This document shows, one piece after another, positions 1 to 50,640 of a DNA stretch of 50,640 nt. The notes under the pieces were generated by a model that saw nothing but the letters and a program-made list of their open reading frames with translations, had not been told where the DNA came from and did not search any database. This DNA comes from Verrucomicrobiota bacterium (lineage in GTDB: Bacteria; Verrucomicrobiota; Verrucomicrobiia; Limisphaerales; BJHT01): assembly GCA_014193395.1 (NCBI GenBank), contig BJHT01000014.1:1-50640 (forward strand), read 5' to 3'. Every line of letters starts with the position of its first letter. Position 1 is the stretch's first letter. A program made the position numbers and the translations under genes.

Positions 1-1
1 G

Positions 2-3000
2 CACGGCATCGTGCAGCGCGACATCAAGCCCGAGAACCTCCTGCTCGACAAAGACGGACGCGTGAAGATTGCCGACTTCGGCATCGCCAAGATGCTGGGA
101 GATGGTCCCGCAGATTCAAAGCGGCCGCAGATGGGAGAAGAAGAAATCGGCGGTCGTCTTGAATCTGCGGGAATAACCTCCTCCACCATCAGCGGCATCT
201 CCGCCGCCTCCGCCGCCGGCACACCGCGCTACATGGCCCCGGAACAGCGCGACCACCAACGCACCGACCACCGCGCCGACATCTACAGCCTTGGCGTCGT
301 CCTCTACGAACTGCTCACCGGCGAACTCCCCGCCGACAAACTCCAGCCGCCCTCGCGCAAAGTGCAAATCGACGTGCGCCTCGACGAGATCGTCCTCCGC
401 GCGCTGGAGCAAACACCCGAGCTGCGCTTCCAAACCGCGTCGGACTTGCGGACGCAGGTGGAGACGTTCGTCGCCACCCCTCGCAACAGTCGCCCGGAGG
501 CACCGAGCGCCTCGCAACCACCGCGCTTCCTCAAAGTCGGCACCAGCACCCTTACCACGCCCGCGCAGCTTGCCACCTCCGAGGGCCAGTTCTTCGCCTA
601 CCGCACGCGCGGGCAGCTCATCCTCGACGACCGCCAGCTCACGCACTCGCGCGACGGGGTGAACACCGTCATTCCGCTTGCCGCCATTAGCGACTTGAGC
701 ATCGGCAGGCATCCGCGCGCGATGGCACCGGCGGGCATTGACCTCCTTAGTGTCACCTACGAGGAAGGTGGCCAACGCAAACAAGTGCTCCTCTTCCCGA
801 TGGAAGGCTGGTTCGGACTTCCCGGCACTGCGAACGCGCGTGTCGCCGAGTGGTTCGCGGCCATCCGCATGGCCGCCACCGCCGCCACGGGCCGCGTGCC
901 CGCCTCGACGCCGACGGATCAGCTCAACGTGCCGAAGAGTTCCCCGCTGGCGTGGTCGCTGGTGCTGGGTGCACCGCTGCTTCCGTTGCTGCTCATGGGA
1001 GCAGTCATCGCGCGGCTGCTGCATTCCCGCTCGGACGTGTCCCCCGCGATGTGGCTGATCGTGGCGCTGCCGGTCCTGCTCGCGCTGGCCGGCTTCGGCC
1101 TCCCGTGGCTGCTGCCCTGGCTGGCCGGGAACGGTCGTTCGTCCGCGACCCCGCCGACGCCGCCGCGCGAACCGAGCGGCGCAGCTTCCCCGAAGCTCGC
1201 GTGGCTGATCGTGCCGGTGCTCTTCGCCACTGGATTGCTCCTCCTCCTCAGTCTCGGTGGCGGCGGGGGATTTATTCCCGGTGCGCCCGAACTGGCCATC
1301 CTCTCTGTGCTGGGCGGACTGGGCCTTTGGCACTGGTTCCGTCGCGCAGCCCCGCCCGCCGCGCCCGGCACAACCAACGTCGGCCAACTCCCAACCCCGG
1401 CCGCCAGCTCGCAAGCGCCGAGGGCTGTCTGGGGCCATCTGGTCGGGGCCTTGTTCGGCATCACGTTCACCTCACCGCTCGCCTTCAAACTCGCCGATCT
1501 CTCCGCGCTCGGCTTCCTCGGTTTCCTGGGGTTTGTCGGCTTGTCGGAAATCGATGGCTTGCGCTGGTGTCAGGGGTTCTTCGGCTTCTCAGGTTTCTTC
1601 GGACTCATTGGCGTGGCGTCCATCGTGGAAACGGCCCATCGCCGCCAGCACCGGACCGACACCGCTTCCCCGCCGTCGGCTCACTCGCCGTTCAAATACA
1701 CCGGCCTGCTGATGCCGCTGGTGCCTGTGCTGCTCCTCGGCATCCTCGCCGTGAAATTCTACCGCGAAGCCAGCTCCCCCTCCGGCGTCACGCACTTCGA
1801 CCTCGCGCCCGTCGGCGTGAGCAACAACGTCGTCATCGTGGACGTGACCACCAAGGTCGGGCGTGGCAATGCGGAGTTGCGCGCCGTGCTGGACGGCCCG
1901 CAACTGCCCGCCGCGACGGAGGCGGCGCTGGTCGAGACGTTCTCCCCGCCCTTCGCCGGCACGTTCATCAAGCCCACGCCCTACGCGGGCAATCACCCGT
2001 TTCGCATCCTCTCGCCGGGCCGGCAGACGTGGCGACTCGGTTTCGTGCTGCCGGACGCGGCGCTGGCCAAGGAGGCTCTTGAAAACCTGCAACCCATCGG
2101 CTCGCTGCCCGCAGTGACGGGCCGCACCGTCGCGGGCACGCTGTTCGATGTGCGCCAGACCAACGGCCAGGAGTTTCACGCCACGCTGCAAGTCGCGCCG
2201 CCCATCACCGCCGCCGACCCGAACTGGGTGGCCATTTCCTCAGTGATGTCCACCTACAACGAATCCGGCGGCGTCACGATGAATTGGGAATTGCTGACCT
2301 CGCAACCCGGCCTCGTGGTGCTCCGTCGGGAGCGAAGCAGCTCGACCGGAGCGCTCCAGGGCAACCAGAAGACCAAGTTTCAGCAGGCCAACATCAGCCT
2401 CGCACTGACTGCGGCCGGCCCGAATCGCGTGCTGCTGGTCTCCCGGATCGGCGGCGTGACAGCCCGCGAGGAACTGACCGGCAATCTCCGTGACCTCTCG
2501 GCGGAACTGTGGCGCTACAAGAACCTGAGCGCGAAAACTGTGCGCGGCGCGGAGATCGAGCTGTGCAAGTTTCAAGGCAAGCCCGTCACCGTGCAGGTGG
2601 TTGCCCCGGTCACCGTGGGCACGACTCCCGCCACGGCGGGCAACCCGGCCATCGAGCGCGCGGAAATTTCCCCGGACAAGGCGGTCGTCCACCAGGCGCG
2701 CTACGACGGCTCCGGCCTGCTCATCACCTTCGGCACCGGCACCAACCGGTGGACGCCGTCGGGCCGGTATCTCGACGGGCTGTTCAATGTCACGCTGGAG
2801 TGGCCAAAGTTCGGGAGCGGAGCCCTTCATGTCATCAAGCCTCGGCACGGCATTCACATGAACTACCGCCTCGATGGCCCGCCGGGGCCGATGGTCGGCA
2901 AGCTGGTCTTCCATCCCGGCACGGCGCGGCCCGATGCGGAAGGGCTGTGTGTCATCGGCGCATTTCAGCCCGACACGGGCGCGCCATTGCCACTCGCGGT

Positions 3001-5647
3001 GCATCTCGTAGCCGATCCGCCCTCCCAGCCGCGCCCTGCCGCCCCCAGCTCGATCACCACTCCCGCGCCCGTGAAGATGGTTGATTCGTCGTCGACGATC
3101 ATTGGCATTGGAGTCATTGGACTGTGCCTCATCGTCGTCATCGGCGGCATCGTGCTGCTCGTCGTGCTCCTGCGCAAAGGCGGGACCGCTGGCAAGGTGG
3201 TGGCCGTGCTGGTGGCCGTGTCGTTGCTCTTGCTCTTGCTCGGTGTCGCCGCATTGCTGGGATACAAGCGGCAGGCGATGAACTCCCGGCAAGGCGATGC
3301 TCGGACTGCGTCGGTGAAATACGGGCAGATGATTCTGGAATCAAACTACCCCGGTCACATTGCGGCGAACCCACCCGGGCGAGTGATGCAAGCGCAGAAC
3401 GGCTTCCGCCTCCACCTTCCCGCGCTGCAGCTCGCGAGCTTCGAGTTCTTGATCCGCGACGCTGACGATTCGTGGCGGGCCGTGCCGTCGCTCACCGCGT
3501 ATGTCGCCACCGGCACGAACGGCGGTTACCACGACACGCTCTACTGGACGCTGCGCCGGGACGGCGACTCCAACGCCCTGAACCCCACGAACCAGCTCTG
3601 GTTCTGGAGCGTGAGCGCGACGGTAAATGGCGGTCAGGAACTGCCTCACCTTGCTGACCACGGCACAAACTTCACCCACACGCTCACGCCCGGCGACCAG
3701 CTTGATTGGTGGCAGCTCGCCGTGCCGCCGCAAACCGTGCTGCAACCCGGCGAGCAACGACCCATCCCGCTCTTCCGCACGCACGGCAGCGCCACCGCGC
3801 GCGGCACCGTGCCGAAGGAAGCCGCCTTGCGCGTGCGCTGCGAGCCGTTGCCCGCCGCGCTGAACCTCACCTTCCGCCACCAGGTCGTGGAACTCGGCCT
3901 CGCCGCGCACGAGGCGCTGGAGAAAGTGCTGCCTGCGAAGTCCGTCTCCACCGCGCCGCGCAAGATTGCCCACGGCGTCTCGCCCATCAAAAGTTCCGAG
4001 GCCACGGAGGACAACAGCCCCGCAGCCATCGCGGCGGCGCAGCGGCAAGGCATCGCCAGCGCCACCGAGGACATTCAAGCCGGCGTCTTTCGCATCCTCG
4101 CCTACGGGGACTTGATTCCCACCTCACCCGAGGACAAGGACGACGAGACGGGCTTCCGCATCCAGTGGGTCGCCGGCTCCTTCCTGAGCGACGCCTTCCG
4201 CGCCGAGACCGACGCCTACAACTTCGCCATGCGCGACTGGTTCTGGAAGAACCGCCCCGATTGGTCGGCCACCGTGACCCTCCTCGTGCTCGACGCCGAC
4301 GGGAAGCCGATGCCGCAGACGACCGTCGCCTTCACCGCTGCCGAAGCGCCGAACAGCAAAGCCGGAGCGAGCAGCCCCCTCGCAACGCGCGTGACCGATG
4401 ACCTGGGTTTCATCCACGCGTTCAGCGCTCCGACGAACAGCCGGTGGTCCGTGGCCATCGTGCGCAACGGCAAGGAAGGTCCGCGCTCCGCCCCCCTCGC
4501 CACGTCGGTGGCCGTGAACGCGCGCGGCGGCGCACCGAACTACTTCCTCGAACTGCGCCCCACCGGCGCAACGCCGGGCGACGTGCAGCTCACACCGTTG
4601 AGTTCAGAGGCCAACCAAGTCGCGCCCCGAGCGGCCGCGGACCAAGTGCTCGCCAATCGCCTCGCGCTGGCCGCGCTGCTGCAAAAACTCCACCAACTCC
4701 CGGCGACCTCGGACGAGCCGGGCGCGCTCTGGCTGCCCGTTCCCGGCGCGGCGGTGCCCGTGACCAAGCGGGTGGAAGTCGCGGCGCAGATCGAGCGGCT
4801 GCGGCGGATGATTCGGGCCGGTGGCGAGCGTGAGGCGAAGGTCCCGCCCCACATCGAGTTCAAAGTTCTCCGCGTCGAAAATCCGCCGGGCACGCGGGAC
4901 ATTCTCCTGCACTTCCAGCGCGACACGAACCCCGGCCTCGGCCTCGAAGTCACGCAGGACGTGACGCCTTCCGCCGGTTTGCGCAAACAGCCGGAGCCGG
5001 GCACCTACCGCGACTGGCAGGTGAAGACGTGGGCGGGCGTGAACGACCGCGTGCTGGCCTGGACCTTGCCGCAGGAGTTCACGGCAGCGGAAGTGCGCGC
5101 CGTGGCGAAGGACATGGAGCAGCGGGCGAAGGCGATGCGGCAGTTGCCGGACGGGGCGGTGCCGGAGTTCGCCACCGCCGTGCATCGGGACGGCTGGAAG
5201 TATCACCTCTTCGCGCGCGTCCTGCGCGCGCCGGGCTTGGCGAATCCACCACCGCAACCGCCCGGCGCAGCCCCGCTCATCCGCCGCGAGGAGCGGGGTA
5301 AGACCCGCGACGGCAGGGATTTCGTCATGACCTTCGAGGAACTACAGCGCGACGAGAAGACCTCGACCGTCACGGTAAAGACCGTCAACGGGGGCTCCGT
5401 GGGTTCCGCGATGTTCGAAGTGCGAGGCAATTGGGAAATCGCAAAAGCACGGGGAGCGGCCTACTTCATCAACCTCAAGAGCTGGCAAGGCGAGAACGGT
5501 CAGTGGATGAGTCTCACCGGCTTCGCACCGGACAATAACGCGGACCCGAAAACTTACTTCGACTTGAAAGAGCCATTGCCGGCGGACAAGCGGCTCATCT
5601 TCCTGTCGGTCGCGGACTACCAACGCATCTTCAAAGACCAGCCGTGA
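2..5647 (+). CDS. Large membrane Ser/Thr protein kinase, 5'-truncated by the window edge
   Basis: The frame is already open at base 2, so the N-lobe lies outside the window. Visible kinase parts are the catalytic loop QRDIKPEN (bases 14-37), the DFG motif in ADFGIAK and GTPRYMAPEQ, followed by DIYSLGVVLYELLTG of the C-lobe. This is the bacterial Hanks/PknB type. The His of HRD is replaced by Gln (cag at 14-16). The stretch between DFG and APE is unusually long because it contains a palindromic insertion (106-172). After the kinase comes a region with about nine hydrophobic segments: a cluster at about bases 940-1770 and two more near 3090-3270. Long, probably exported segments of unknown fold lie between and after them. 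The catalytic domain should face the cytoplasm. The C-terminal ~1,500 residues match no domain I recognise. Kinase identity is secure; the substrate is unknown. Confidence 0.9.
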   Translation, partial: HGIVQRDIKPENLLLDKDGRVKIADFGIAKMLGDGPADSKRPQMGEEEIGGRLESAGITSSTISGISAASAAGTPRYMAPEQRDHQRTDHRADIYSLGVVLYELLTGELPADKLQPPSRKVQIDVRLDEIVLRALEQTPELRFQTASDLRTQVETFVATPRNSRPEAPSASQPPRFLKVGTSTLTTPAQLATSEGQFFAYRTRGQLILDDRQLTHSRDGVNTVIPLAAISDLSIGRHPRAMAPAGIDLLSVTYEEGGQRKQVLLFPMEGWFGLPGTANARVAEWFAAIRMAATAATGRVPASTPTDQLNVPKSSPLAWSLVLGAPLLPLLLMGAVIARLLHSRSDVSPAMWLIVALPVLLALAGFGLPWLLPWLAGNGRSSATPPTPPREPSGAASPKLAWLIVPVLFATGLLLLLSLGGGGGFIPGAPELAILSVLGGLGLWHWFRRAAPPAAPGTTNVGQLPTPAASSQAPRAVWGHLVGALFGITFTSPLAFKLADLSALGFLGFLGFVGLSEIDGLRWCQGFFGFSGFFGLIGVASIVETAHRRQHRTDTASPPSAHSPFKYTGLLMPLVPVLLLGILAVKFYREASSPSGVTHFDLAPVGVSNNVVIVDVTTKVGRGNAELRAVLDGPQLPAATEAALVETFSPPFAGTFIKPTPYAGNHPFRILSPGRQTWRLGFVLPDAALAKEALENLQPIGSLPAVTGRTVAGTLFDVRQTNGQEFHATLQVAPPITAADPNWVAISSVMSTYNESGGVTMNWELLTSQPGLVVLRRERSSSTGALQGNQKTKFQQANISLALTAAGPNRVLLVSRIGGVTAREELTGNLRDLSAELWRYKNLSAKTVRGAEIELCKFQGKPVTVQVVAPVTVGTTPATAGNPAIERAEISPDKAVVHQARYDGSGLLITFGTGTNRWTPSGRYLDGLFNVTLEWPKFGSGALHVIKPRHGIHMNYRLDGPPGPMVGKLVFHPGTARPDAEGLCVIGAFQPDTGAPLPLAVHLVADPPSQPRPAAPSSITTPAPVKMVDSSSTIIGIGVIGLCLIVVIGGIVLLVVLLRKGGTAGKVVAVLVAVSLLLLLLGVAALLGYKRQAMNSRQGDARTASVKYGQMILESNYPGHIAANPPGRVMQAQNGFRLHLPALQLASFEFLIRDADDSWRAVPSLTAYVATGTNGGYHDTLYWTLRRDGDSNALNPTNQLWFWSVSATVNGGQELPHLADHGTNFTHTLTPGDQLDWWQLAVPPQTVLQPGEQRPIPLFRTHGSATARGTVPKEAALRVRCEPLPAALNLTFRHQVVELGLAAHEALEKVLPAKSVSTAPRKIAHGVSPIKSSEATEDNSPAAIAAAQRQGIASATEDIQAGVFRILAYGDLIPTSPEDKDDETGFRIQWVAGSFLSDAFRAETDAYNFAMRDWFWKNRPDWSATVTLLVLDADGKPMPQTTVAFTAAEAPNSKAGASSPLATRVTDDLGFIHAFSAPTNSRWSVAIVRNGKEGPRSAPLATSVAVNARGGAPNYFLELRPTGATPGDVQLTPLSSEANQVAPRAAADQVLANRLALAALLQKLHQLPATSDEPGALWLPVPGAAVPVTKRVEVAAQIERLRRMIRAGGEREAKVPPHIEFKVLRVENPPGTRDILLHFQRDTNPGLGLEVTQDVTPSAGLRKQPEPGTYRDWQVKTWAGVNDRVLAWTLPQEFTAAEVRAVAKDMEQRAKAMRQLPDGAVPEFATAVHRDGWKYHLFARVLRAPGLANPPPQPPGAAPLIRREERGKTRDGRDFVMTFEELQRDEKTSTVTVKTVNGGSVGSAMFEVRGNWEIAKARGAAYFINLKSWQGENGQWMSLTGFAPDNNADPKTYFDLKEPLPADKRLIFLSVADYQRIFKDQP
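106..172. repeat. In-frame palindromic insertion in the kinase activation segment
   Basis: The left arm 106-128 begins tcccgcagattcaa. The right arm 150-172 ends ttgaatctgcggga. They pair over 23 bases with three mismatches and a 21-base loop. The element is translated through and adds a charged, low-complexity stretch between DFG and APE. Confidence 0.75.
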
Positions 5648-6068: not shown

Positions 6069-6294
6069 GCCGTTCGGATCGCACTGCTTCATCATTCTCA
6101 ATGACTGGGGTCGTGGGCGGCGCATTTCAGCTCGAACTTCAACTCGACTTCCCTGCCGCGCAGACGGCATGGCCCGATCCGACAAGACCCGGCCCGGATG
6201 GCGGCCAGGCAAGATGCCCGGACCTGTTTCGCGAACCGCCCGCTCAAACAATCCTGTCGGATTCCGACCTTCGGCGGCGATAGAGTGGGAAAGA

Positions 6295-7962
6295 ATGCAC
6301 GACGACGTGAACGACATGGATTTGCTGCGGCGCTTCGCCCGGGACGGCGCGGAGGAGGCCTTCGCGGAGCTGGTCCGGCGGCACTTGGACCTCGTCCATT
6401 CCGCCGCGCTCCGGCAGGTCCGCTCCCCGCAGCTTGCGGAGGAGGTGGCCCAATCCGTCTTCACCGACCTCGCCCGCGACGCGGGTCGGCTCAAGCCCGG
6501 CACCGTCCTGCCGGCGTGGCTGTATCAGGTCACGCGGCGCACGGCCATTGACGTCGTCCGGCGGGAGGCGCGCCGCCAGCTCCGGGAACAAGTCGCCGGG
6601 GAGATGAACGCCATGAACTCGACCGCTTCCGATTGGGCCCAGGTGGAACCGCTGCTGGACGATGCGATGGCCGCGCTCGAGGACACGGACCGCACCGCCG
6701 TCCTGCTGCGCTATTTCGAGAACAAATCCCTGCGCGAGGTCGGCACGGCCCTCGGCACCTCGGACGACACCGCGCAGAAGCGCGTGAGCCGGGCGGTGGA
6801 CAAACTGCGCGAGTTCTTCGCCCAGCGCGGCGTCACCGTGGGTGCCAGCGGGCTGGCCGTCAACCTCTCGGCCAATGCCGTCCAGGCCGCGCCACCGGGG
6901 CTGGCCCTCACCATTTCTGCCGCCAGCACGCTGGCCGTAGCCACCGTTGCCACCACCACCATCCAAACCATCGCCATGACCACCCTGCAAAAAATCGCCG
7001 TCACCACCGCCCTCGCCGCCGCCGTGGGCATCGCGCTCTACGAAGCCCGGCAAGTGACCGCGTTGCGCGCAGATAATCAGCGCCTCCACCAGCAACTGGT
7101 GCCGCTCACCGCGCAGGTGCAGCAGTTGCAACACGAGCGCGACCGCGCCACGAACCGGCTGTCCAACGTGACCACCGAGCTGGCCGCCGTGAGCAAACAG
7201 CCGACGGAAGTTTTCAAGCTGCGCGGCCAGGTGGGCGTCCTGCGGCAGGAGAAGGACGCCCTCGGCAGCAAGAGCGCCCTGAGCAAGATCACCGCCGATC
7301 CCGAGACCCGGAAGGTGATGCGCGAGCAGCAAAAGGCGGGCATGGCCGCCCTCTACGCCGAGCTCGCCAAGCGCCTCCAGTTGCAGCCCGAGCAGACTGG
7401 CCAGTTCCACGACCTCCTGGCTGACCATGTCATGGACAGCATTGATCTGATCACCCAGGCGCTCCACGACCAGCGCAACAGCACCGAGATCGACCGCCTG
7501 TTTTCCGTCCAGGAGGCCGCCATGCAGGCCCAGGTGGCGGCGCTCCTCGGCCCGGACGGCCTGACCCAATACACGGACTACTCGAAACAGCTCCTCAGCA
7601 GCCTGACCGGCCTGCAGTTCGAGGGCAGCCTGACGGGTGAGAAGAAGGCGAAAACGGAGAAGCGCCAGCAGCTTTCCCAAGCCGTGCAGGAGGAATTGCA
7701 GGCAGCGCTGGCGGCCGCCGGCCTGCCGCCCGACTACCAGACGATGCCCGTGCTGAACTTCCGGAACATCGCCTCCGAAGCGACCGGCGACCAAAGTCTC
7801 AAGCTGCTGGAGAACACCTACGTCCGCGTGACCGAGCGGGCCAAAGGGTTCCTCACGGCGGAGGAGCTGGCCAAGTTTAGCGAGTTCGGGAAGAAGGCGA
7901 TTGAGAACAACCGCTCCGCGCTCCTGATGAACCGGAAGTTGATGGCCCCCATCGCAAAGTGA
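6295..7962 (+). CDS. ECF sigma factor fused to a membrane anchor and coiled-coil domain
   Basis: Residues ~7-92 form sigma-70 region 2 (LLRRFARDGAEEAFAELVRR, then QLAEEVAQSVFTDLAR). Residues ~125-176 form region 4 (DRTAVLLRYFENKSLREVG, then a helix-turn-helix ending KRVSRAVDKLREFF). A low-complexity Ala/Thr-rich stretch follows with a likely membrane helix (IAVTTALAAAVGIALYEA). Then comes a heptad-rich coiled coil (QLVPLTAQVQQLQHERDRA) and a helical C-terminal domain of about 230 residues. Total length is 555 aa, against about 180-200 for a plain ECF sigma factor. The ATG at 6295 was chosen because it sits just after a purine-rich gggaaaga and directly precedes region 2; a further 42 upstream codons are open but look non-coding. 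The layout suggests a sigma factor tethered to the membrane with an external sensor or partner domain. Confidence 0.88.
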   Translation: MHDDVNDMDLLRRFARDGAEEAFAELVRRHLDLVHSAALRQVRSPQLAEEVAQSVFTDLARDAGRLKPGTVLPAWLYQVTRRTAIDVVRREARRQLREQVAGEMNAMNSTASDWAQVEPLLDDAMAALEDTDRTAVLLRYFENKSLREVGTALGTSDDTAQKRVSRAVDKLREFFAQRGVTVGASGLAVNLSANAVQAAPPGLALTISAASTLAVATVATTTIQTIAMTTLQKIAVTTALAAAVGIALYEARQVTALRADNQRLHQQLVPLTAQVQQLQHERDRATNRLSNVTTELAAVSKQPTEVFKLRGQVGVLRQEKDALGSKSALSKITADPETRKVMREQQKAGMAALYAELAKRLQLQPEQTGQFHDLLADHVMDSIDLITQALHDQRNSTEIDRLFSVQEAAMQAQVAALLGPDGLTQYTDYSKQLLSSLTGLQFEGSLTGEKKAKTEKRQQLSQAVQEELQAALAAAGLPPDYQTMPVLNFRNIASEATGDQSLKLLENTYVRVTERAKGFLTAEELAKFSEFGKKAIENNRSALLMNRKLMAPIAK

Positions 7963-8089
7963 CCGGCGTCGAGCTCCCGCCTGAACGATCTGGTCAGGCC
8001 GCCCCTTCCCACCTCGACCAACCTGCATGACAACAAACCAATGCAAACCCAGTAACCCCGTCCGAAGCACAACCCACCACGGCTCAACC

Positions 8090-8431
8090 ATGAAAACAGC
8101 CCTCGCAATCATCGCTCTCCTCTCGGCGCTTTCGACCACCCCAATGCTCGCCGCCAACCACGACAAGGCCCCCGCCAGCGTGGAAGCGCGACTGGTCCAG
8201 GCGGATTTATCCGTCACCCTCCAACAGTATGAGAAGGTCAAGCGCTTGACCGGGGAAGCTGCGCTGCAAGCCGCGCTTCTCGACGGTTCTGACCCCAAGC
8301 AAAGCGAGGCCCTCGCCAAGCGAATCGGTATACTCCGCCAGCACGCCGACAAACTCCGCAGCGAGGCGCTCCGATACGAAGCCGAAATCCGGCTGATCCG
8401 TGAAGGCGCATCGGCAGGAAAGCCCAAGTGA
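8090..8431 (+). CDS. Small secreted protein, helical (113 aa)
   Basis: The start at 8090 gives a clear signal peptide (MKTALAIIALLSALSTTPML, cleavage near AAN). The mature part is about 90 residues, charged and probably all helical: repeated Leu/Ala heptads with Lys, Glu and Arg. The frame stays open upstream to an ATG at 8027, but those 21 codons would push the signal peptide inside, so I prefer 8090. It lies 127 bases after the fused sigma factor gene in the same direction. I do not recognise the family. It is likely periplasmic and may belong to the sigma factor's regulon; that is inference from position only. Confidence 0.65.
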   Translation: MKTALAIIALLSALSTTPMLAANHDKAPASVEARLVQADLSVTLQQYEKVKRLTGEAALQAALLDGSDPKQSEALAKRIGILRQHADKLRSEALRYEAEIRLIREGASAGKPK

Positions 8432-8670
8432 TGGCAACGGAACCGACCTTGCGCTCCCACCTGACAGCTCCGCCGAGGCTGGATCCCATGGAGTCACTTG
8501 GGTGCGAAGGACTACACGATGACTTGCGATGAAGATTTCCGTGCCCGACACCCAAAACACCACCCCACCGGGTCAGCCGCAGACGACAGCCGTGAAATCG
8601 CCGTTGAGTTTCCGGCCATCCGGCGCGTAGCCTCGCTTCCTTAAACTCAACCCCCAAACCAACAAACACC

Positions 8671-8895
8671 ATGACCACCTCCGAAAAGAACAGCCTGCTC
8701 AAACAAAACACGCTCTGCTGGCTCGGCGCACTCATCCTGCCGTTGATCCTCCACTTCGGCCTCCGCCACACCCAGTTCCCCTGGCCGCTGATTCTCCCCT
8801 TCTTGATCTTCGGACTGATGCTCGTCTCGAATAAGTTGCTCGCGAAGGCAAGTGGCGAACCCACGGATAATCTGGATAAGAACGCGAGACGGTAA
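8671..8895 (+). CDS. Two-pass small membrane protein, copy 1 (74 aa)
   Basis: The N-terminus is polar (MTTSEKNSLLKQ). It is followed by two hydrophobic segments, TLCWLGALILPLILHFGL and FPWPLILPFLIFGLMLVSN, and a charged tail (DNLDKNARR). A paralogue with the same length and layout lies at 10415-10630, about 70 percent identical by eye and with an almost identical sequence around the start codon (aacaccatgaccacctccga). Conservation of the two copies supports real translation. Function is unknown; the family name is not known to me. Confidence 0.7.
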   Translation: MTTSEKNSLLKQNTLCWLGALILPLILHFGLRHTQFPWPLILPFLIFGLMLVSNKLLAKASGEPTDNLDKNARR

Positions 8896-8933
8896 GAATA
8901 CTCCGCGGATTGCCGTGCCAACTCCTGACAGCC

Positions 8934-10136
8934 ATGAATGCAATGCGAATCCTCATCAGCTTTCTCGCCACTCTGTGGTTTTGCACGCCACGTTCACCAG
9001 GGCAGGAACCAACGATACCTCACTCCACGCTGTTGTTCGCAGACAACGCCACGTGGAAAGCACTCTATCAATCCGTCCGGCCCAATGAAGAAAATGAACT
9101 CCGGCCATTGCGAGTGGATCCCTCGCTCCAAACCTTGCTGGATGCTGCCCTCCAGGACGCCGACTTCCTGCGCGCGCAGCGGCCTGTCGTCCGCCTCCTG
9201 ATGCAGGATGCGGCATGGCATGCCTTCGATTCGTTGGCGAGTGAGCGCGACTATCACGAACCTGCGAACCGGGCATTGCGGATGCGACTCGCCAGAGTCA
9301 TCGCCGTGGCTGCTTTGACCGAAGAGGAAATCAAACACCTGCCAGCGACGAATACGGGCGCGGCGATTGGAAACGATAAGAAGCGCAACACGGAATTTGA
9401 CGTGGATTTGCCAACTGACTTGTTAGAAAAGGGAAGCGACTGGCTGCAATTGACGTATAAGAACTTGGACAGGATCGCACTGACGCATGAGATGAGTCGT
9501 CGCGGGCGCAGTGAGTTCCTCCTGTTTGTGCGATTTCCGGATGGGCGCAAGCCCTTGGAAGACTACCTCAGAAGTCACAATGAATATGCTGTCGCGGAGG
9601 GACGCCGGCGGGATGCGATTCTGAATTTCATGGCCGTTCGAGTGGACCCGGTTCCGCCGATTCCGAAGTTCCCCGCCCACGCGCAAGCGGTGCTGCTGGA
9701 GCGAATGCTCGCCATCTCCGACCGCGGCGTCCCGGTCGCCACTCCGATCAGCAGGTCACTGGCGATGATTGATTTCCAATCGGCGGTGAATTCTGAGAGC
9801 GGGAGGCTGCATAACTTCCGCGCTGCGGCATTCAGATTGTCCCCTGATACGTTGCTGGGCAAGGAGACGAACGTTCACCTGCGCCGCCTGAAGGAACGGG
9901 AGCCGTTCACGGGGGAAACGCACTTTCCGCTCGGCCTCCAACAGTGCTCTACCTGCCATGGCGGCGGCGGCTTGTTATCGCTGACGGGCGGGGTAGCCGG
10001 GATGATTCTCCCCCCCAATCGGGCGGTTGACTCACTGCCAAAGGTAACTGCCTCGGACACGCAAAAGTGGAAACTGCAACGACCGGAGTTCGGACTCTTA
10101 CGTGGGCTCCTCGAAGGACTCGACCTGGCAAAATGA
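8934..10136 (+). CDS. Secreted protein with one CXXCH heme-binding motif
   Basis: The start at 8934 (MNAMRILISFLATLWFC) gives a signal peptide; the ATG at 8943 is an equally possible start. The mature protein is about 380 residues and mostly helical in look. Near the C-terminus a CSTCH motif (residues 338-342, in LQQCSTCHGGGG) fits covalent c-type heme attachment, so a periplasmic mono-heme protein is likely. No other cytochrome domain is obvious, and the ~300 residues before the motif match nothing I recognise. It sits between the two copies of the MTTSEK-type small membrane protein, which hints at a linked unit. Function is unknown. Confidence 0.75.
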   Translation: MNAMRILISFLATLWFCTPRSPGQEPTIPHSTLLFADNATWKALYQSVRPNEENELRPLRVDPSLQTLLDAALQDADFLRAQRPVVRLLMQDAAWHAFDSLASERDYHEPANRALRMRLARVIAVAALTEEEIKHLPATNTGAAIGNDKKRNTEFDVDLPTDLLEKGSDWLQLTYKNLDRIALTHEMSRRGRSEFLLFVRFPDGRKPLEDYLRSHNEYAVAEGRRRDAILNFMAVRVDPVPPIPKFPAHAQAVLLERMLAISDRGVPVATPISRSLAMIDFQSAVNSESGRLHNFRAAAFRLSPDTLLGKETNVHLRRLKEREPFTGETHFPLGLQQCSTCHGGGGLLSLTGGVAGMILPPNRAVDSLPKVTASDTQKWKLQRPEFGLLRGLLEGLDLAK

Positions 10137-10224
10137 TCCAAACGCGCCTGACCAAGCCTGGATTCCCAGCGCCGGAGCGGGTTCCCCTTCTCTTACTTTG
10201 CATCGCGATCTGTAGCCCCAAATC

Positions 10225-10350
10225 ATGAAAATTCCACCGGCCATCTTGTCACTGCTTTCCCTGCTCTCACTGGCCGCGCCCGCGGTGGATATCACGAGGT
10301 TGGGATTTGACGGCCTCTCCTGGGCGCCACAACTCACCACACGATTCTGA
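10225..10350 (+). CDS. Possible 41-residue exported peptide or gene remnant
   Basis: A short frame begins ATG AAA ATT and encodes MKIPPAILSLLSLLSLAAPA, a convincing signal peptide. It is followed by only about 21 residues (VDITRLGFDGLSWAPQL and a short tail) before TGA at 10348. It may be a true micro-protein. It may equally be the 5' remnant of a longer secreted protein cut off when the MTTSEK-type gene was duplicated next to it. There is no homology evidence. Confidence 0.35.
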   Translation: MKIPPAILSLLSLLSLAAPAVDITRLGFDGLSWAPQLTTRF

Positions 10351-10414
10351 AACACTGCCCCGTTACGGCCAGCGCACCGCAGTTCTAGCCTCAACTCAAC
10401 ATCCAACCAACACC

Positions 10415-10630
10415 ATGACCACCTCCGAAAAGAGCAGTCTCCTGAAACAGAACACGCTTTGCTGGCTCGGTGCCCTCGCCTTGCCGGTGATCCTCCACTT
10501 CGGCCTCAGCGACACCAAGTTCCCGTGGCCGCTGATTCTCCCGCTCCTCCTCGTGGGCCCGATGCTCGTCTCGAACACGTTGCTCGCGAAGGCCAGCGGC
10601 GCGGCCATGGACGATGCGAGTCAACGATAG
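10415..10630 (+). CDS. Two-pass small membrane protein, copy 2 (71 aa)
   Basis: This is a paralogue of the protein at 8671-8895. It shares the N-terminus MTTSEK.SLLKQNTLCWLG, the two hydrophobic segments (ALALPVILHFGL and FPWPLILPLLLVGPMLVSN) and the LLAKASG junction before a variable polar tail (AAMDDASQR). The ATG at 10415 is chosen by alignment with copy 1; the frame is open upstream to 10307 but those codons have no counterpart in copy 1. Function is unknown. Confidence 0.7.
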   Translation: MTTSEKSSLLKQNTLCWLGALALPVILHFGLSDTKFPWPLILPLLLVGPMLVSNTLLAKASGAAMDDASQR

Positions 10631-10681
10631 CTGGGGTTTGGCCGGGAGCATCCCCCCGCCACTGCCGTCCAACTCCGCACC

Positions 10682-11182: not shown

Positions 11183-11213
11183 CGGTGCCCAGGCAGGAAG
11201 AACCGAAGTTCGA

Positions 11214-11342
11214 ACCACAGAGACGCGATGAACACAGAGAAGCACCAGACTTCGCCGGCCAAGCTGGGTTCACCGATGGGCGACTTCTTGTTCTTCGACG
11301 CCGACGCCGTCTTCCTCTGTGTTCATCGCGTCTCTGTGGTCC
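11214..11342. repeat. Inverted repeat pair, 'accacagagacgcgatgaac' type
   Basis: The arm at about 11215-11240 (accacagagacgcgatgaac...) is answered by its reverse complement at about 11316-11341 (...gttcatcgcgtctctgtggt). The two are separated by about 75 bases that hold no gene. Related arms occur at 12662 and, in the form gaaccacgaaagacacg, at 47707. Confidence 0.75.
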
Positions 11343-11406
11343 CATTTCCCTTTCCAACTGCCTCGACTCGGTTCCGCTGCACCGTCCCTCCATCCAACTC
11401 CGCACT

Positions 11407-16213: not shown

Positions 16214-16344
16214 AGAGCCTGTTTGAAAACCCGGTTTGGAGTTCCGCGTTTACGCGGTTCGGGCATCGTGGACCAGCGGGCCGCGTAAACGCGGAACTCC
16301 AAACCCAGTTCCTCTCGGCTCAAAGGGCTTTTCAAACAGGCTCT
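16214..16344. repeat. Nested inverted repeat, 'gagcctgtttgaaaa' family, copy 2
   Basis: The outer arms are agagcctgtttgaaaa (16214-16229) and ttttcaaacaggctct (16329-16344), a perfect match. The inner arms are ttggagttccgcgtttacgc (from 16236) and the reverse complement ending 16302. This is the best preserved copy in the window. The remainder of the gap to 16563 shows no gene. Confidence 0.85.
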
Positions 16345-33818: not shown

Positions 33819-34295
33819 GCCCGGCAGCGTAGGGAGATCGCGAACGCTTGTCAGGCTTCAACCAGCGGGCGCCCGCTCAATGGGTGCCGCCGCCGTTGTC
33901 GAGTAGCCGCCGAGGTGACGAGGCGGACGCCACTCAAGCAAACGGCCCGGGAAATCCGCCTCCTCACGTCGGCGGCTACTACGGTCCGCCGAACGCGTCG
34001 CGGCCAAACTGAATCTCAACTCCATACCCCGAACCGGATTTGGCAAAGGAATGGAGACAAAGGAAAGAAGACAAAAAACTCCCCGTCCCCATTCCTTTGC
34101 CACCATTCCTTTGCCCAAAATTCCCTTGCCTCACTTCCGTGTGCCCCGCCCATGCGCACGGCCGGCACCCGCCACGCCCCGCCCGCCGCTCTCCGCCCAA
34201 CTCACCTGCAATTCCTCCACCCTCCTCTGCTCACGCACCGGCCCACGCAGGAGAGAGTGTTTGAATTCGCCCCGCCGCGCCCTAGCCTCCGCGCC
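33819..34295. other. Gap with two inverted repeats
   Basis: The first is 33902-33927 against 33955-33980 (agtagccgccgaggtgacga...), 26 bases with two mismatches. The second is 34041-34115, made of tggcaaaggaatggagacaa and its reverse complement. The gap lies between divergent genes (32502-33818 on minus and 34296-35141 on plus), so promoters for both must be here. No coding region is seen. Confidence 0.65.
34041..34115. repeat. Inverted repeat of the 'ggcaaaggaatggag' family, copy 1
   Basis: The left arm 34041-34065 reads tggcaaaggaatggagacaa. It is answered by ...attcctttgccaccattcct at 34091-34115. Further copies are at 38139-38162 (one arm) and 39029-39111 (both arms). Confidence 0.75.
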
Positions 34296-36567: not shown

Positions 36568-36661
36568 TGTAGGAGACGACGTAAGGAGACTCTAACCTTT
36601 TCCTCGCGGCGTGCGTGCCCGGCCCGAAGGAGGTCAGAGTCTCCTTACGTCGTCTCCTACA
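36568..36661. repeat. 30-bp inverted repeat, 'cttgtaggag' family, copy 2
   Basis: The left arm 36568-36597 (tgtaggagacgacgtaagga...) and right arm 36631-36661 (...tccttacgtcgtctcctaca) pair with one or two mismatches around a 33-base loop. It lies between two minus-strand genes. Confidence 0.85.
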
Positions 36662-39002: not shown

Positions 39003-39028
39003 AAGAGCGGCAAACTATTGCTGAGGAT

Positions 39029-39111
39029 GGCAAAGGAATGGAGGCAAAGGAATACCGGCTCGGAGTCCGCTCCCTTCCCCGTCCCCATTCCTTTGCCTCC
39101 ATTCCTTTGCC
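39029..39111. repeat. Inverted repeat of the 'ggcaaaggaatggag' family
   Basis: The left arm 39029-39053 and right arm 39087-39111 (attcctttgcctccattcct...) are perfect reverse complements over about 25 bases, with a 33-base loop. The left arm matches 38139-38162 in the same direction. Confidence 0.85.
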
Positions 39112-39131
39112 ATAATTCCCCCTGCCCCTGC

Positions 39132-42100
39132 TTAGTTCACAAACAAAAACTCATTCGAGTTCACGAGCACCCGGCACGCGCTGGCGAGGCCGTGCTGGCG
39201 GGCGTGGCCGGTGAGCAGCGCTGCTTCGGCGGGCGTGGGCGCGCGGGCACACAGCAGGCGGAAGGCGCGGTCAATGCGGGCTTCGACGGTGCCGGCCTCG
39301 CGTTCGAGGCGCGCGGCGAGATGCTCGCACTGGCGCAGGACGAAGCGGTTGTTCCACAGCGACAGCGCCTGCAACGGCGTGGTCGTGGCATGCCGGCTCG
39401 GCGTGGACAGCGACGGATCCACGGCGTCGAAGGCGTCGAGCAACGGGTCGTTCAGGTTGCGAAAGAGGAAGCGGTAAACGCTGCGGCGAAAGCTGGCCGG
39501 GCTGTCGGGATCGAAGGCCGCGTAGTCCACGCGCGGCGAGACCTCCTTGTTCGGGTCCGCGAATTGGAACTGCATCGCCGACGGGCCACCCATCGTAAGA
39601 TCAAGCCGTCCGCTCGCGGCGAGCAGCGCGTCGCGCACGCTCTCGGCATCGAGGCGCGGACGGTTCATGCGCCAGAGGAGGCGGTTGTCGGTATCCGTGT
39701 GCGAGGGTGTGAGAGTGAGAGCGTGGGGGAGAACGGGGCGTCCGTCGGCCCCTCTCTCAGACCCTCGCACGCTCACACTCTCAGACATCGACGACGTCTG
39801 CCGATACGTCGCGCTCGACACAATCAACCGGTGCAACTGCTTGAACGAGCCGCCGCCGTCGCGGAATTGCACGGCCAGCCAGTCGAGCAGTTCGGGATGC
39901 GTCGGCAGCGCGCCCATGCGACCGAAGTCGTTGGGCGTGGCCACGAGGCCGCGGCCGAAATGCCAGTGCCAGACGCGGTTCACGATGCTGCGCCAGGTGA
40001 GCATGTTGTCCGGCGACGTGATCCAGCGGGCGAGCGCGGCGCGGCGGGCGGCCTCGTCGTTGGGAATGGCGAGCGCGAATTCAGGCGACAGCGTCCCGAC
40101 CGCTGCCAGCGCACCGGGACCGACGGGCGCGAGCGGTTGCTTGAGATCGCCACGACGCAGCACGGCGATGGGGAGCGGCTCCTTGAACGGCTTGTAATTT
40201 CGCACCGGCGCGAAGTCCCCGGCGACAGCCCACACCTTTTGCTCGGGCGGGAGTTCCGCGAGCTGGCGTTTCACAAACACCAGCCGGTGCTGATCGAAAA
40301 GTTGTTTGCGCTCGGCGTCCGTGCGCTCGGATTCGGGACGGGCGAGCTTGGCGAGCAGTTCGAGCGGCAGCGACGGCGTGCGCACGGGCAGCGCGCGGTC
40401 GGTGGCGGACAGGCGGAAGCGCCCGATGAGATGATGCTGGCCGTGAAGCTGATCCAGCTCGATGACGAGCGCCGCGCCGTTCGTGAGGGCGGGCGGTTGC
40501 TTCAGCTCGAAGACCGCCTGGTGCGGCTTGCCAATCTGCGGATGAATGCCCCACGCCGTTTCCTTTTTCCCGTCGATTGCGCGCTCGATGCCCCAGCCGG
40601 TTTGGTTGAAATCCGCCGTGGGATTTTGCAACGCGAGCGGCGTGAGCTTCTCGGCCACGGTCGGGAGCGCGGGCGGCCCGCCCGCAAAAACCGTCGGAAC
40701 CACCGGGCGCGCGGCGGGCGAAGCGACGGCATTGGTGGCTGCGTTGGAAAGCGCCGGGGGACTCGCGGGCGGCCCGCCCGCGCTCCCGAGGCTCAGCCGG
40801 ATTTCCGAAAGATGCAGATTGCCATTGTCCTGCCGGCCGGGACCGCGCATCGGGAGGCGCTCGTCAGGGAGAACTTCGAGGCGCAGCGCGGTGAGTTTGG
40901 ACAGCTTGGTGCGTGCGCGAATCGTGTAGGTGTCCTTGTCGGCGGCGGTGCCGGACGCGAGCCACGAGCCGTCGTCGAGGCGCGTGAAGAGAGTGGCGTT
41001 CGTGGCGGAAGAGATTTTTTCGACTTCGAGCGGCAGCCAGTTCACCGCCTCCGCCGCGAGCGATTTTTCCCACTCGATCTGCGCGCGGGCGAGTTCGGCG
41101 CGCTGCGCGGCGGTGGGCGGATGGGCGTCGGGATTTTTCTCAAGGTCGGCGATCAGCTTGGCCAGCGTCGTGCGGGTGACGCGGAGCTGCGGGTCGGCGT
41201 CGTAGTTGCGCACGGTGCGGCCCACGCCGGCGAACACGGCCTGGAGCCGGTAATAATCACGCTGCGAAATGGGATCAAACTTGTGCTCGTGACAGCGCGC
41301 GCAATGCACCGTGAGGCTCAGAAACGTGCTCGCCGTGCTGGTCACCATGTCGTCGCGATCCAGATTCAGCGCGAGGCGTTTGCAGTCGGTGCCATCGACC
41401 TGCTCAACGAGCGCGCTTTGATTGAACGGCCCGGCCGCGACAAAACCGAGCGCCGGAATCAGCGCCGGCTCGTTCGGGAACACCGCGTCGGCGGCAAGCT
41501 GCTCCTGCACGAAGCGCGCGTAGGGCTTGTCGGCATTGAAGGCCGCGATCACGTAATCGCGATACGGCCACGCCTCGAAACGCGGGCGGTCCATGCCGAA
41601 GCCGTTGGACTCGCCGTAGTGAACCACATCCAGCCAGTGCCGCGCCCAGCGCTCGCCGTAGCGCGGCGATGCGAGCAGCCGCTCGACGAGCCGCGCGTAG
41701 GCATCGGCGGTGCGATCATTTTCAAATGCCGCAATCTCCTCGGGTGTCGGCGGCAGCCCGTGCAGGTCGAACGTGAGCCGGCGAATGAGCGTGACGCGAT
41801 CCGCCTCGGGCGACGGCACGAGGCCGCTCGCCTCGAGCTGGGCGCGGATGAAAGCGTCGATCGGCGACGCCGGTGCGACGCCGGTGCGCGGTTTTGGAAC
41901 CGAAGCAGCGACCGCGGTGGGCAAGGGTTTCAGCGACCACCAACTTGCATCCGCCGCCGCGGCTTTCACGCGCGGATCGGGAGCGCCGAGTTCGATCCAA
42001 CGGGCCAGCGTGGCGATGTCGGCGTCGGCAAGCTTGGGCTTTTTCGACGGCATCTGGAGATCAGCGAGTTCGTGGCGCACGGCCTTGAGCAGCCGGCTTT

Positions 42101-42329
42101 CCCCCGGCTTGCCCGGCACCACGGCGGGTCCTCCATCACCGCCCTCGGCCCAGCCGCTGCGGGAATCGAGCGTGAGGCCGCCCTTCATCTTCCCCGCCGC
42201 GTGCGAGTGGCATTCGTAGCAATGCTGCCGGAGCAGCGGCTCGACGTTCGTCGTGAAAAAATCCTCCGCGCGGAGACAGGCGTCCGACACGCAAGAAATC
42301 AGCAGCAGCCCTGTCAGTCGGAGGCGCAT
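39132..42329 (-). CDS. PSCyt1-PSCyt2(DUF1549)-DUF1553 c-type cytochrome protein
   Basis: The protein has 1065 aa with an N-terminal hydrophobic leader ([18 protein letters not shown]). The PSCyt1 heme motif CYECH is at 37-41. The DUF1549 part has a second CXXCH, CARCH at 343-347, with nearby [17 protein letters not shown] and [19 protein letters not shown]. DUF1553 fills the C-terminus ([41 protein letters not shown]). It is a periplasmic membrane-linked multidomain protein whose electron acceptor role is unknown; the usual DUF1501 partner is close by. Two palindromic insertions in frame (residues ~514-557 and ~848-878) are listed separately. Only four bases separate its start from the stop of the next gene, so they form an operon. 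Confidence 0.93.
   Translation of the reverse strand: [1065 protein letters not shown]
39697..39786. repeat. In-frame repeat insertion in the DUF1553 gene (site 2)
   Basis: The sequence is rich in gtgagagtgagagcgtg. A 17-base inverted pair, gtgcgagggtgtgagag (39699-39715) and ctctcagaccctcgcac (39754-39770), pairs with one mismatch. It encodes residues ~848-878, a low-complexity Ser/Arg-rich stretch unlike the rest of the protein. Confidence 0.65.
40661..40789. repeat. In-frame perfect 25-bp inverted repeat in the DUF1553 gene (site 1)
   Basis: The left arm 40661-40685 (tcgggagcgcgggcggcccg...) and right arm 40765-40789 are exact reverse complements with a 79-base spacer. It is translated as an Ala/Pro/Gly-rich stretch with two AGGPPA motifs (residues ~514-557). 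The arm core gcgggcggcccgcccgc is related to the hairpins in the 147-bp repeats. Confidence 0.85.
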
Positions 42330-48717: not shown

Positions 48718-50097
48718 ATGGCCCGCCCCACCAGCAAAGCCCCCGCGCCCTCCCGCACGGCCGTCGTCCTCGATGAGCTCGCCCGCTACGAGTCGCGCAA
48801 CGTCACGTTCCTCGACCCAGACGGCACGTGGCCGATCGTGTGGGAACGCGCGCAAGGCACACACGTCTGGGATGCCGAGGGCCGCCGCTACCTCGACCTC
48901 ACAGCGGCGTTCGGCGTGGCGGCAGCCGGGCACGCGAACGAGGCCGTGGTCCGCGCTGGCAGCGAGCAGATGGGCCGGTTGCTGCACGCGATGGGCGATG
49001 TACACCCGCACGCGCTCAAGGCCGCACTCGCGCGCGAGCTGAGCCGCCTCACGTTTGAGCGGTGGAGTAGGCGGTCCGACCGGTCGGACCCGTCCGAACC
49101 GTCCGACCAGCCCGCCGCGCCTCTCCACGCCAAAACCATCTTCTGCAACTCCGGCTTCGAGGCCGTCGAGGCCGCGCTGAAGACCGCGCACCTGGCCACC
49201 GGATGCCCAGGCATCATCGCGTTCCAAGGCGCTTATCACGGCCTCGGTTACGGCGCGCTCAACGCGACGCACCGCGGTTTTTTCCGCGATCCGTTTCGCC
49301 AGCAGCTCCGCGAATTTGGCAGCTTCATCCCCTTCCCCGCCACCGACGACGACCTCCGCGCCACCGAGCGCGCGCTCACCGCCGCCGCGCGCAAAAGCAA
49401 GATCGGCGCGGTCTTGCTCGAGCCGATGCAGGCGCGCGGCGGGATCAACATTCCGCCCGCCGCCTTTCTGCCGCTGCTGCGCCGTTGGTGCGACCGGCAC
49501 GGCGCGCTGCTGATCGTGGATGAAATTTACACCGGCTTCGGTCGCACCGGCCGCTGGTTCGCGTGCGAACACTCGGCCACCGTGCCGGACCTGATCTGCC
49601 TCGGCAAAGCGCTCACCGGCGGCTTCCCGCTCTCCGCCTGCGTCGGCCGCGCGGACGTGATGGACACGGCGTGGCCGGCGTCCGCCGGCGAGGCGATTCA
49701 CACGAGCACGTTCCTCGGTCATCCGGTCGGTTGCGCGATGGCGCTGGCGCAAATCCGCGAGATCGGCCGACGCAAACTTCCCTCCCGCGCCGCCGCCCTC
49801 GGCCTTCGTGCGCTCGATGCGTTGCGTCAACTCGAAATCCCCGCCGGCCTCCGTGCCGAGGCGCGCGGCCTCGGCCTGCTGCTCGGGCTCGAACTCCGCC
49901 TCGCCGACGGCGCGCCCGCGACCGCCGCGTCGCTCGCGATCATCAAGGCGCTGCTGCACCGCGGCTTCATCCTCCTGCCCGAAGGCGAGCACGCGAATGT
50001 CATCAGCTTCACCCCGCCGCTCACGATCACCTGGCGAGAATTCGCCGCGGTTCTCCGCGCGCTCCAAGCCGAACTCCACCGCGTCGCACTGCCGTGA
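48718..50097 (+). CDS. Class III (PLP-dependent) aminotransferase
   Basis: The protein has 459 aa. The PLP-binding elements are D268 in [18 protein letters not shown] and Lys297 in [16 protein letters not shown], and [14 protein letters not shown] for the phosphate. The N-terminal [20 protein letters not shown] is also standard. The family moves amino groups between omega-amino acids, ornithine, GABA or similar and keto acids; which one is not clear. A palindromic stretch (49073-49090) adds residues ~118-132 ([15 protein letters not shown]) in frame. The start at 48718 follows queE closely. Confidence 0.9.
49073..49090. repeat. In-frame perfect 18-bp palindrome in the aminotransferase gene
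   Basis: ggtccgaccggtcggacc is its own reverse complement; related cgtccga repeats continue to 49107. It encodes part of a charged Ser/Asp/Arg-rich insertion absent from the general class III aminotransferase pattern. Confidence 0.75.
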
Positions 50098-50286: not shown

Positions 50287-50335
50287 AGTGCTTCGCACTC
50301 CGCGCTCGCCCGCGAGACCACCTTCGGGATTCGCG

Positions 50336-50640
50336 ATGAAACTCACCGACATGCGGCACATTCTGGCGACGCGCGACATCCGGCTCACCAAGTCGCTCGG
50401 TCAAAATTTCCTCCACGACGGCAATCAAATCCGCCGCATCGTCGCCGCCGCGGAACTCACGCCCGACGATCGCGTTCTCGAGATCGGCCCGGGCCTCGGG
50501 CCGCTCACCGAGGCGCTGCTCCCGGCGTGCGCCGAGGTGTTCGCCATCGAGAAGGACCACCGCCTCGTCGCGGTGCTCGCGGAACGATTCGCCGCCGAGC
50601 CGCGCCTGCGCCTGCTGCACGCCGACGCGCTCGCCTATTT
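50336..50640 (+). CDS. rsmA: Ribosomal RNA small subunit dimethyltransferase A, 3'-truncated by the window edge
   Basis: Only the first ~101 codons are in the window. The start [20 protein letters not shown] is followed by the family block [16 protein letters not shown] and the AdoMet loop [16 protein letters not shown], then the acidic end of strand 2 in [10 protein letters not shown]. The enzyme (also called KsgA) dimethylates two adenosines near the 3' end of 16S rRNA. It is a conserved single-copy gene and a good marker for placing this genome. The ATG at 50336 is clear. Confidence 0.93.

Follow-up and report, generated by a model that had tools for sequence, protein, structure and literature searches.

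In-frame palindromic repeats in protein genes of a Verrucomicrobiota bacterium, and the recurrence of different repeats at the same loops

How palindromes come to lie inside protein genes with the reading frame intact is the question raised by a stretch of 50,640 nucleotides from a Verrucomicrobiota bacterium (assembly GCA_014193395.1, contig BJHT01000014.1, our contig 14), that we refer to as the window. An earlier note on this DNA had claimed that palindromic repeats have inserted in frame into at least three protein genes, and had likened them to the Rickettsia palindromic elements (RPE). All four palindromes that it listed are present, and each is read through in an open frame. The Ser/Thr protein kinase gene (2..5647, forward strand; Pfam PF00069, E 7.2e-22, residues 1-170) begins at the contig edge, so that its 5' end and the N-terminus of the protein are missing, and has an inverted repeat at 106-172 with arms of 27 nt, 85% complementarity and a loop of 13 nt. 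The gene for a PSCyt1/DUF1549/DUF1553 protein (39132..42329, reverse strand; assigned by Pfam and orthologues) has two such sites, at 40661-40789 (arms 25 nt, 96%, separation 79 nt) and 39697-39786 (arms 17 nt, score 14.5). The class-III aminotransferase gene (48718..50097, forward strand; PF00202, E 9.3e-85) has a perfect 18-nt palindrome at 49073-49090, read directly from the sequence. Single-strand folds of the first three gave z values of -7.32, -4.14 and -3.45 respectively in a test with 200 dinucleotide shuffles per element, and all three elements beat every shuffle.

We put at about three in four the probability that 106-172 and 40661-40789, and probably also 39697-39786, are multi-copy repeats resembling repetitive extragenic palindromes (REPs) and their paired hairpin-forming form (REPINs), or miniature inverted-repeat transposable elements (MITEs), likely to have been transposed in and likely to have been kept because they are in frame in a loop that tolerates inserts. 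One RPE-like family behind all sites was considered and rejected, as no two of the four sites (one in the kinase, two in DUF1553 and one in the aminotransferase) have the same sequence. The likeness to RPE therefore holds for the presence of in-frame palindromes in protein genes at places where orthologues differ, but not for the kind of element, as several REP/REPIN-like or MITE-like families are involved.

The genome as a whole is made up of 730 contigs that total 7.9 Mb, and its contamination is 5.84%. Our sample of it, 1,250,640 bases, consists of the window and 60 further stretches, each of 20 kb. A custom codon-usage script called 818 genes in this sample (77.7% coding), which was searched for 22 repeat families picked from over-represented words and from the sites of the finding. 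The 416 merged repeat intervals include 392 that are intergenic, 13 at gene edges and 11 within a gene by 60 nt or more. With the models used, six families (R09, R14, R17, R19, R20 and R21) yielded no matches, and the 416 intervals thus exclude both DUF1553 sites. A count that makes no use of families gave 292 inverted repeats with a score of at least 14 in 278,463 intergenic nt and 26 in the 957,966 nt of 759 genes, and codon-shuffled versions of the same genes gave 8, 4 and 9. Palindromes are thus far rarer in genes than between them, and yet above chance in genes. There are thus multi-copy families with copies in frame in many proteins, together with strong avoidance of genes.

The families differ in this respect, the proportion of intervals inside genes being 6 of 42 for R01, 1 of 21 for R13 and none of 39 for R05. 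R01, GTAGCCGCCGACGTGAGGAGGCGG, is found at 310 places in this genome and 313 in one other genome of the same genus, that we call the sister genome, and at 0 to 36 places in 18 other genomes. Its unit, GTAG-CCGCC-gacgtgagga-GGCGG, has an unpaired terminal GTAG on a stem-loop and fits the GTAG REP superfamily. Its copy number also fits, with single units and inverted dimers (20 dimers in the sample), as does its mostly intergenic habit (34 of the 42 intervals intergenic, 2 at edges and 6 inside). A GGAG-tagged family, GGAGCGCCGAGCATTGCTCGGC (GGAGCGCCGAGC), is found at 77 places in this genome and 149 in the sister. The dimers of R01 and of the GGAG family span 66-93 nt and consist of two inverted REPs with a short spacer, as in a REPIN.

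The element in the window kinase, at 106..172, is a 67 bp copy of the hairpin element R13 with the in-frame product GPADSKRPQMGEEEIGGRLESAG. It lies between the DFG and APE motifs, that is in the activation segment, and is recognised by its arms, its family members, its fold and a stretch that is unmatched in PknB. In an alignment with PknB (3f69), residues 36-63 of the window kinase are unmatched, between DFGIARAIADS and SVTQTAAVIGTAQYLSPEQ, and the insert stops immediately ahead of VTQTAAVIGTAQYLSPEQ. Outside genes R13 is 64 bp long in 8 of the 9 copies paired by the dimer script. With a 64-base query there are at least 92 strand-matches in its own genome and at least 75 in the sister, both being lower bounds as 40 of 89 and 40 of 48 candidates respectively were scored, and most places match on both strands; there were no matches in six other genomes of the order. 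R13 lacks the terminal GTAG, its ends being TCCCGC...GCGGGA, and forms one hairpin of 24-27 bp, and for these reasons we have not filed it as a GTAG REP. It has the inverted ends of a MITE, with no target site duplication evident by eye in the printed flanks. The nearest paralogue of the window kinase in the genome has a segment of 49 residues without R13. The multi-copy nature of the family supports the view that 106-172 is an insertion. Elsewhere, at G000:C298:7132-7800, five R13 elements follow each other with a spacing of about 151 bp.

In the case of the DUF1553 gene the site at 40661..40789 has two inverted GGAGCGCGGGCGG(C/G)CCGCCCGC repeats (R09), 79 nt apart and in frame. R09 belongs to the GGAG-tagged REPs; with no more than one mismatch allowed the sample has it at 11 places, two of them in the DUF1553 site itself. 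The sister orthologue (89-93% identical) is 84 nt shorter here with near-identical flanks, and appears to retain one decayed repeat; the orthologues of G027 and G008 (64-78% identical) are without the repeat. Several opposite-strand orthologues were left out of the alignments. The multi-copy family and the shorter orthologues support insertion at this site. The site at 39697..39786, in the loop after ATYRQTS, has a GTGAGAG-type inverted repeat (R21), also in frame. With three mismatches allowed R21 occurs at 7 places of the sample, two of these being its own arms, and on this count the site is likely to be an insertion. G001 and G027 have other palindromes at this position: after ATYRQ the sister has an R01 REPIN, G027 has a third palindrome and G008 has a short loop. 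A regular-expression survey of this loop gave 11 open reading frames (ORFs) and missed the sister orthologue, and is excluded from our counts.

The same situation was found in two further genes. A squalene-hopene-cyclase-like gene, so assigned by Pfam, has a loop with an R01 REPIN in our genome. In the sister gene, parts of which are 73-89% identical, another palindrome and an R13 element lie side by side in the loop; there is other repeat-like sequence in G027 and G003, and a short loop in G008 and G018. The CstA gene has a loop with an R01 REPIN common to our genome and the sister, and with GGAG-type dimers in G003, G010 and G018 (scores 20-22.5), while inverted-repeat scores do not exceed 8.5 in nine other relatives. 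The loop motif was absent from the search result for G029, which is labelled "without" in the tree. In a CstA tree built from the part before the loop the label needs three changes, two of them forced by well-supported branches. One loop in each of DUF1553, cyclase-like and CstA thus has different palindromes according to lineage, and none in other lineages. These three genes were chosen for comparison because they have REPs in our genome, and all three REP-bearing genes other than kinases that were compared show the recurrence; the aminotransferase does not.

These loops are where one would look for palindromes attracting palindromes, that is for a single ancestral hit into which later repeats inserted, or which they converted, so that recurrence reflects a target preference for REP DNA. 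The two different elements adjacent in the sister cyclase-like loop would fit, as would the common architecture and similar flanking residues of the CstA dimers of G003, G010 and G018, and in Coxiella the GTAG REPs are reported to be targets of IS1111 insertion (PMC5896051). However palindrome-free short-loop orthologues exist in all three families, the CstA tree with its forced changes does not favour a single hit, and the R01 element of CstA in our genome and the sister differs in architecture from the GGAG dimers, and we consider this explanation unlikely. The same CstA insertion bears on a quite different concern, that the draft metagenome genomes have misled us through assembly or binning. 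The many contigs and the contamination level of our genome give some ground for this, but two separately assembled genomes share that R01 insertion and the wider pattern is seen in loci of many separate assemblies, and an artefact is barely credible.

The kinase loop was then considered across many kinases. From 28 PF00069 matches in our genome we obtained 13 distinct activation segments, measured from DFG to APE, whose lengths differ widely. One group of kinases has DWG where others have DFG; this group, at about 6090-16898 of G000:C1 (L142, L143, L145, L146), on G000:C205 (L144) and on G000:C257 (L140), and thus with four on one contig, has segments of 112-189 residues that are Pro/Ala-rich and mostly non-palindromic; one has R01 and GGAG elements and another a SRRGDEAD peptide with a weaker palindrome. 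Of 7999 candidate proteins sharing most words that were scored, 6614 matched, and the best 120 of these gave 98 segments of 32-85 residues with varied repeat-like peptides, among them LTPALSPGEGEG...GGEGRGEG and VGRDSVEP...STESRPT, which are putative translated repeats. At the DNA level we used 79 kinase loci of public genomes from the best 80 of 558. A total of 76 distinct segments came from 69 of the loci, and 9 loci yielded no segment. The inverted-repeat score of the segment exceeds those of all 60 length-matched windows of the same ORF in 16 of the 76, where about one is expected, and in 4 of the 13 in our genome.

Inverted repeats with a score of at least 12 number 13 in the 5,661 nt of activation segment of the public loci (2.3 per kb), 5 in the kinase domain outside that segment (66,693 nt; 0.075 per kb) and 5 in the 138,921 nt of remaining ORF. 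The corresponding figures for our genome are 4 in 2,661, 1 in 10,695 and 1 in 15,255. The single domain-rest palindrome of our genome and two of the five public ones lie 71-92 residues before DFG. To judge from the spacing this is probably the loop between beta4 and beta5, which may be a second landing pad. When 117 distinct segments are pooled (76 public, 13 from our genome and 28 from relatives), 19 reach a score of 12, as against a mean of 0.5 and a maximum of 3 in 50 rounds of codon shuffling. Strong palindromes are found in none of the 53 segments under 60 nt, 4 of the 27 of 60-89 nt and 15 of the 37 that are longer. About a dozen different arms occur, many of them GTAG- or GGAG-tagged. 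An AlphaFold2 model of a REPIN-bearing planctomycete kinase was discarded, having a pTM of 0.29, with the conserved parts of the segment below a pLDDT of 50.

The activation segment controls kinase activity, and it is thus unexpected that it should be the densest site. This invites the suggestion that the insertions were selected, with the new residues, including added Ser and Thr, rewiring autophosphorylation. The position of the window insert directly before VTQTAAVIGTAQYLSPEQ can be read in the same way, the two threonines of VTQT being autophosphorylation sites of PknB. Yet the peptides have no sequence, length or frame in common, many segments (the 53 of 117 under 60 nt) are of the canonical short kind, and DUF1553, cyclase-like, CstA and dehydrogenase genes also have repeats, so that we find selection of this kind improbable.

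Five of the repeats in activation segments were searched for genome-wide, namely R13, R01, the GGAG family, GTAGGTCAGGCTTTCCAGCCTGAC and GTAGGGCGCGTCACTCCGT. The planctomycete kinase-loop repeat GTAGGTCAGGCTTTCCAGCCTGAC has 221 and 235 places in two planctomycete genomes and GTAGGGCGCGTCACTCCGT has 46 in G006, with no matches to GTAGGGCGCGTCACTCCGT in the genomes of L200 and L214, where the loops have other repeats; reversed-pattern controls gave no matches for R01, the GGAG family, GTAGGTCAGGCTTTCCAGCCTGAC and GTAGGGCGCGTCACTCCGT. These counts bear on the proposal that the palindromes are not mobile repeats and arose locally, by template switching during replication in unconstrained loops. 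It would account for the finding that most kinase-loop palindromes have no further copy in the 5-20 kb about them: the arms of 15 were searched for in their own loci and have more than two places only for L185b, L214 and L230, the extra places of L185b and L214 being a second element in another copy of the loop, and the remaining arms having only their own one or two. However all five repeats searched for genome-wide have at least 46 places (or about that, in strand-matches) with clean controls for the four pattern searches, and we regard local origin as a very remote prospect for these elements. In the GTAGGGCGCGTCACTCCGT genome a region at G006:C31 5348-14907 (L296) has three kinase matches each with the same GTAGGGCGCGTCACTCCGT dimer, two of which were read as segments; they may come from gene duplication or from repeated insertion.

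The aminotransferase palindrome at 49073..49090 is consistent with template switching. Its 16-nt core has no second copy in the 1.25 Mb sample. Inspected by eye, the stretch looks like a 9-bp unit repeated almost in tandem, and the length of the loop around it varies. The corresponding loop of the sister resembles it but is three residues longer, contains SDRSDP and has no more than a weak inverted repeat. As an inserted repeat this palindrome was rejected, because the core is single in the sample, the longer sister loop lacks a strong palindrome, and its edges do not match the indel. The claim of at least three genes thus stands for the kinase and DUF1553 genes only, two of the three.

In-frame copies are not confined to these genes. 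At the places listed for it in our genome the GGAG family has 45 script calls, some overlapping, that give 36 dimers, and 8 of the 36 have convincing in-frame coding sequence on both sides. The eight genes are for a FabA protein resembling polyunsaturated fatty acid synthases, an MMPL/acyltransferase protein, a TPR protein, Lnt, an aldehyde dehydrogenase, a U32 peptidase, a P-type ATPase and a TIR/NACHT protein. Three further copies, in L009 (kinase), L021 (DUF1549 protein) and L334 (UvrA), have open frames but are below the coding threshold, which makes the count of eight a cautious one. The cleanest test of insertion is the aldehyde dehydrogenase. Against its best solved relative, 6mvr, residues 24-274 align with 11-255 of the chain and 302-524 with 258-475, and the repeat covers approximately residues 273-297, about where the two blocks part; compared with this solved structure, the REP is thus an indel whose limits are those of the repeat. 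Across the genes the left arm of the GGAG repeat is translated in all three frames, as GAPSIAR, RSAEHCSA and xERRALLG. The peptides therefore look arbitrary, and a conserved peptide function is unlikely as judged from the sequences; that the repeat-coded stretches are exposed protein segments, as the earlier note supposed, is plausible. The TIR/NACHT gene (L020, 156-3551) has two in-frame inverted repeats, one of them a GGAG dimer and the other with 27-nt arms, and the UvrA-like open frame with a GGAG dimer (L334, 2482-2564; G000:C78) recalls the two repeat-bearing uvrA genes of Opitutus terrae.

The mechanism that we envisage is that the repeats spread, probably mobilised in trans by Y1-type or other transposases, and that most copies hitting genes would be purged. 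A copy would survive where the net gain is a multiple of three, which the open frames seen imply, where the frame is open through the repeat, and where the loop does not matter for folding, a condition suggested by the positions. As few loops would qualify, the same ones would be refilled by whichever family is active in a lineage. The chief accepting loop would be the activation segment, in which repeats would accumulate and segments lengthen. There are 8 Y1_Tnp matches in our genome. Among 15 repeat strings near them (within 1.5 kb) only R14 flanks one on both sides, and single copies of R06 and R09 are near the matches in L004 and L008, with one R09 about 1.3 kb from the weakest match. The match flanked by R14 is in L005 (918-2237), with four CAACCCCGTTGGGGTTG repeats on its two sides, and is likely to be a transposase accompanied by a repeat of its own; the window has inverted pairs of CAACCCCGTTGGGGTTG at 13275-13332.

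There remain several difficulties for this interpretation. None of R01, R13 or GGAGCGCCGAGC was found within 1.5 kb of the 8 Y1_Tnp matches, a test that would miss transposases on unsampled or broken contigs. The common extragenic lengths (64 for R13; mostly 70, 71 and 76 for R01) are not multiples of three, and an in-frame net gain therefore requires further changes. R05 has 73 matches in the sample and none well inside genes, from which most other families are absent too, so that something besides tolerance must govern which families are found there. Two of the 11 in-gene intervals (L010 and L040) have a 3' side without coding support. No close orthologue of the window kinase with an empty loop was found from which the R13 junctions could be fixed; the indel at the palindrome edges that the earlier note proposed to look for is seen in the shorter DUF1553 sister, but not in the aminotransferase. 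Four database homologues (P0005, P0020, P0028 and P0032) share R13-like residues, so that R13 may have entered the window kinase long ago and been passed on by descent. The frame of the sister cyclase-like loop is open (944 residues) but has a stop within the last matched part. The three CstA GGAG dimers may be one old insertion with stems that have drifted, and for CstA we thus count at least two events and not surely four. Finally the kinase sample consists of best-scoring homologues and includes near-identical pairs (L192/L202 and L183/L188, and two each in L214 and L296), so that segment counts are not event counts; L185 and contig 33 of G001, both 72,623 long with the same segments, are likely one record.

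We suggest, as a tentative possibility that we would not favour as it stands, that the activation segment of Hanks-type kinases in Verrucomicrobiota and Planctomycetota is a standing landing pad for REPs, where mobile palindromes would remake the switch loop time after time and selfish DNA would so diversify signalling, and that a short list of such pads (the activation segment and the beta4-beta5, DUF1553, cyclase and CstA loops) recurs across lineages.

With regard to known systems, REPINs and RAYT (REP-associated tyrosine) transposases are reportedly the subject of work by Bertels and Rainey in 2011. The R01 and GGAG dimers resemble REPINs in their two inverted REPs and short spacer, and the genome has Y1 transposase genes, but no RAYT is tied to R01, R13 or the GGAG family here. 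GTAG and CGTC REPs have been described in frame in genes, with the verrucomicrobium Opitutus terrae having the most intragenic GTAG repeats; both of its uvrA genes carry two REPs each, and loops were proposed as neutral sites (PMC3733652). In the same paper the repeats in recB of two Xanthomonas occupy nearly one position, whereas in other genes that fall into one category their positions differ. Those REPs are like ours in being tagged short palindromes, single or as dimers and in frame, and uvrA is a target in both. However that work puts the stress on DNA repair genes, and kinase activation segments, or one loop reused by different repeats, are absent from the portions compared. The RPE are also palindromic repeats fused in frame into conserved proteins, and Gmk bearing an RPE is active with its insert as summarised in PMC2229807. 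The presence in frame in conserved protein genes is shared with our repeats, but RPE are 105-146 bp and Rickettsia-specific, whereas here there are several families of about 64-83 bp that are hairpins or REP dimers; the 66-83 bp in our genes sets them apart by the size description only. The QMITE elements of Coxiella (PMC5896051) likewise are small inverted-repeat elements that extend genes in frame, but QMITE2 is 150-190 bp, mostly in 3' untranslated or intergenic regions, and gives C-terminal extensions. Coding palindromes of nematomorph mitochondria (PMC6649704) are inverted repeats in conserved genes, gained and lost between species as here, but are perfect, long and apparently maintained, and are mitochondrial.

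In view of the RPE and Opitutus terrae precedents, in-frame palindromes as such are not new, even in Verrucomicrobiota. We found no account in the open-licence literature of REPs in kinase activation segments or of one loop hit by different repeats across lineages, a search that did not extend to subscription journals or supplementary tables, including the intragenic REP list of PMC3733652. What is new relative to the print found is the recurrence of different repeats at the same loops, above all the kinase switch loop. In-frame REPs amount to a natural insertion experiment, in which the sites of survival would mark loops that accept 20-40 new residues, and it becomes testable whether selfish DNA alters bacterial signalling or merely marks tolerance. 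There is also a caution for alignments, in that segments of the RSAEHCSA- or SRRREEAD- type can be translated repeats and not functional motifs.

The window has extragenic elements of the same kinds. A GTAG-tagged pair of R01 at 33902..33980, outside called genes and including an exact copy at C14:33956-33979, is an extragenic sibling of the in-gene R01 copies. Inverted pairs of GGAGTTCCGCGTTTACGCGG (R12) at 16228..16310 and of GTAGGAGACGACGTAAGGAG (R02) at 36568..36661 are extragenic also, and R05 inverted repeats, GGCAAAGGAATGG, are present at 34039-34118 and 39027-39113, their consensus being without a stop codon by eye.

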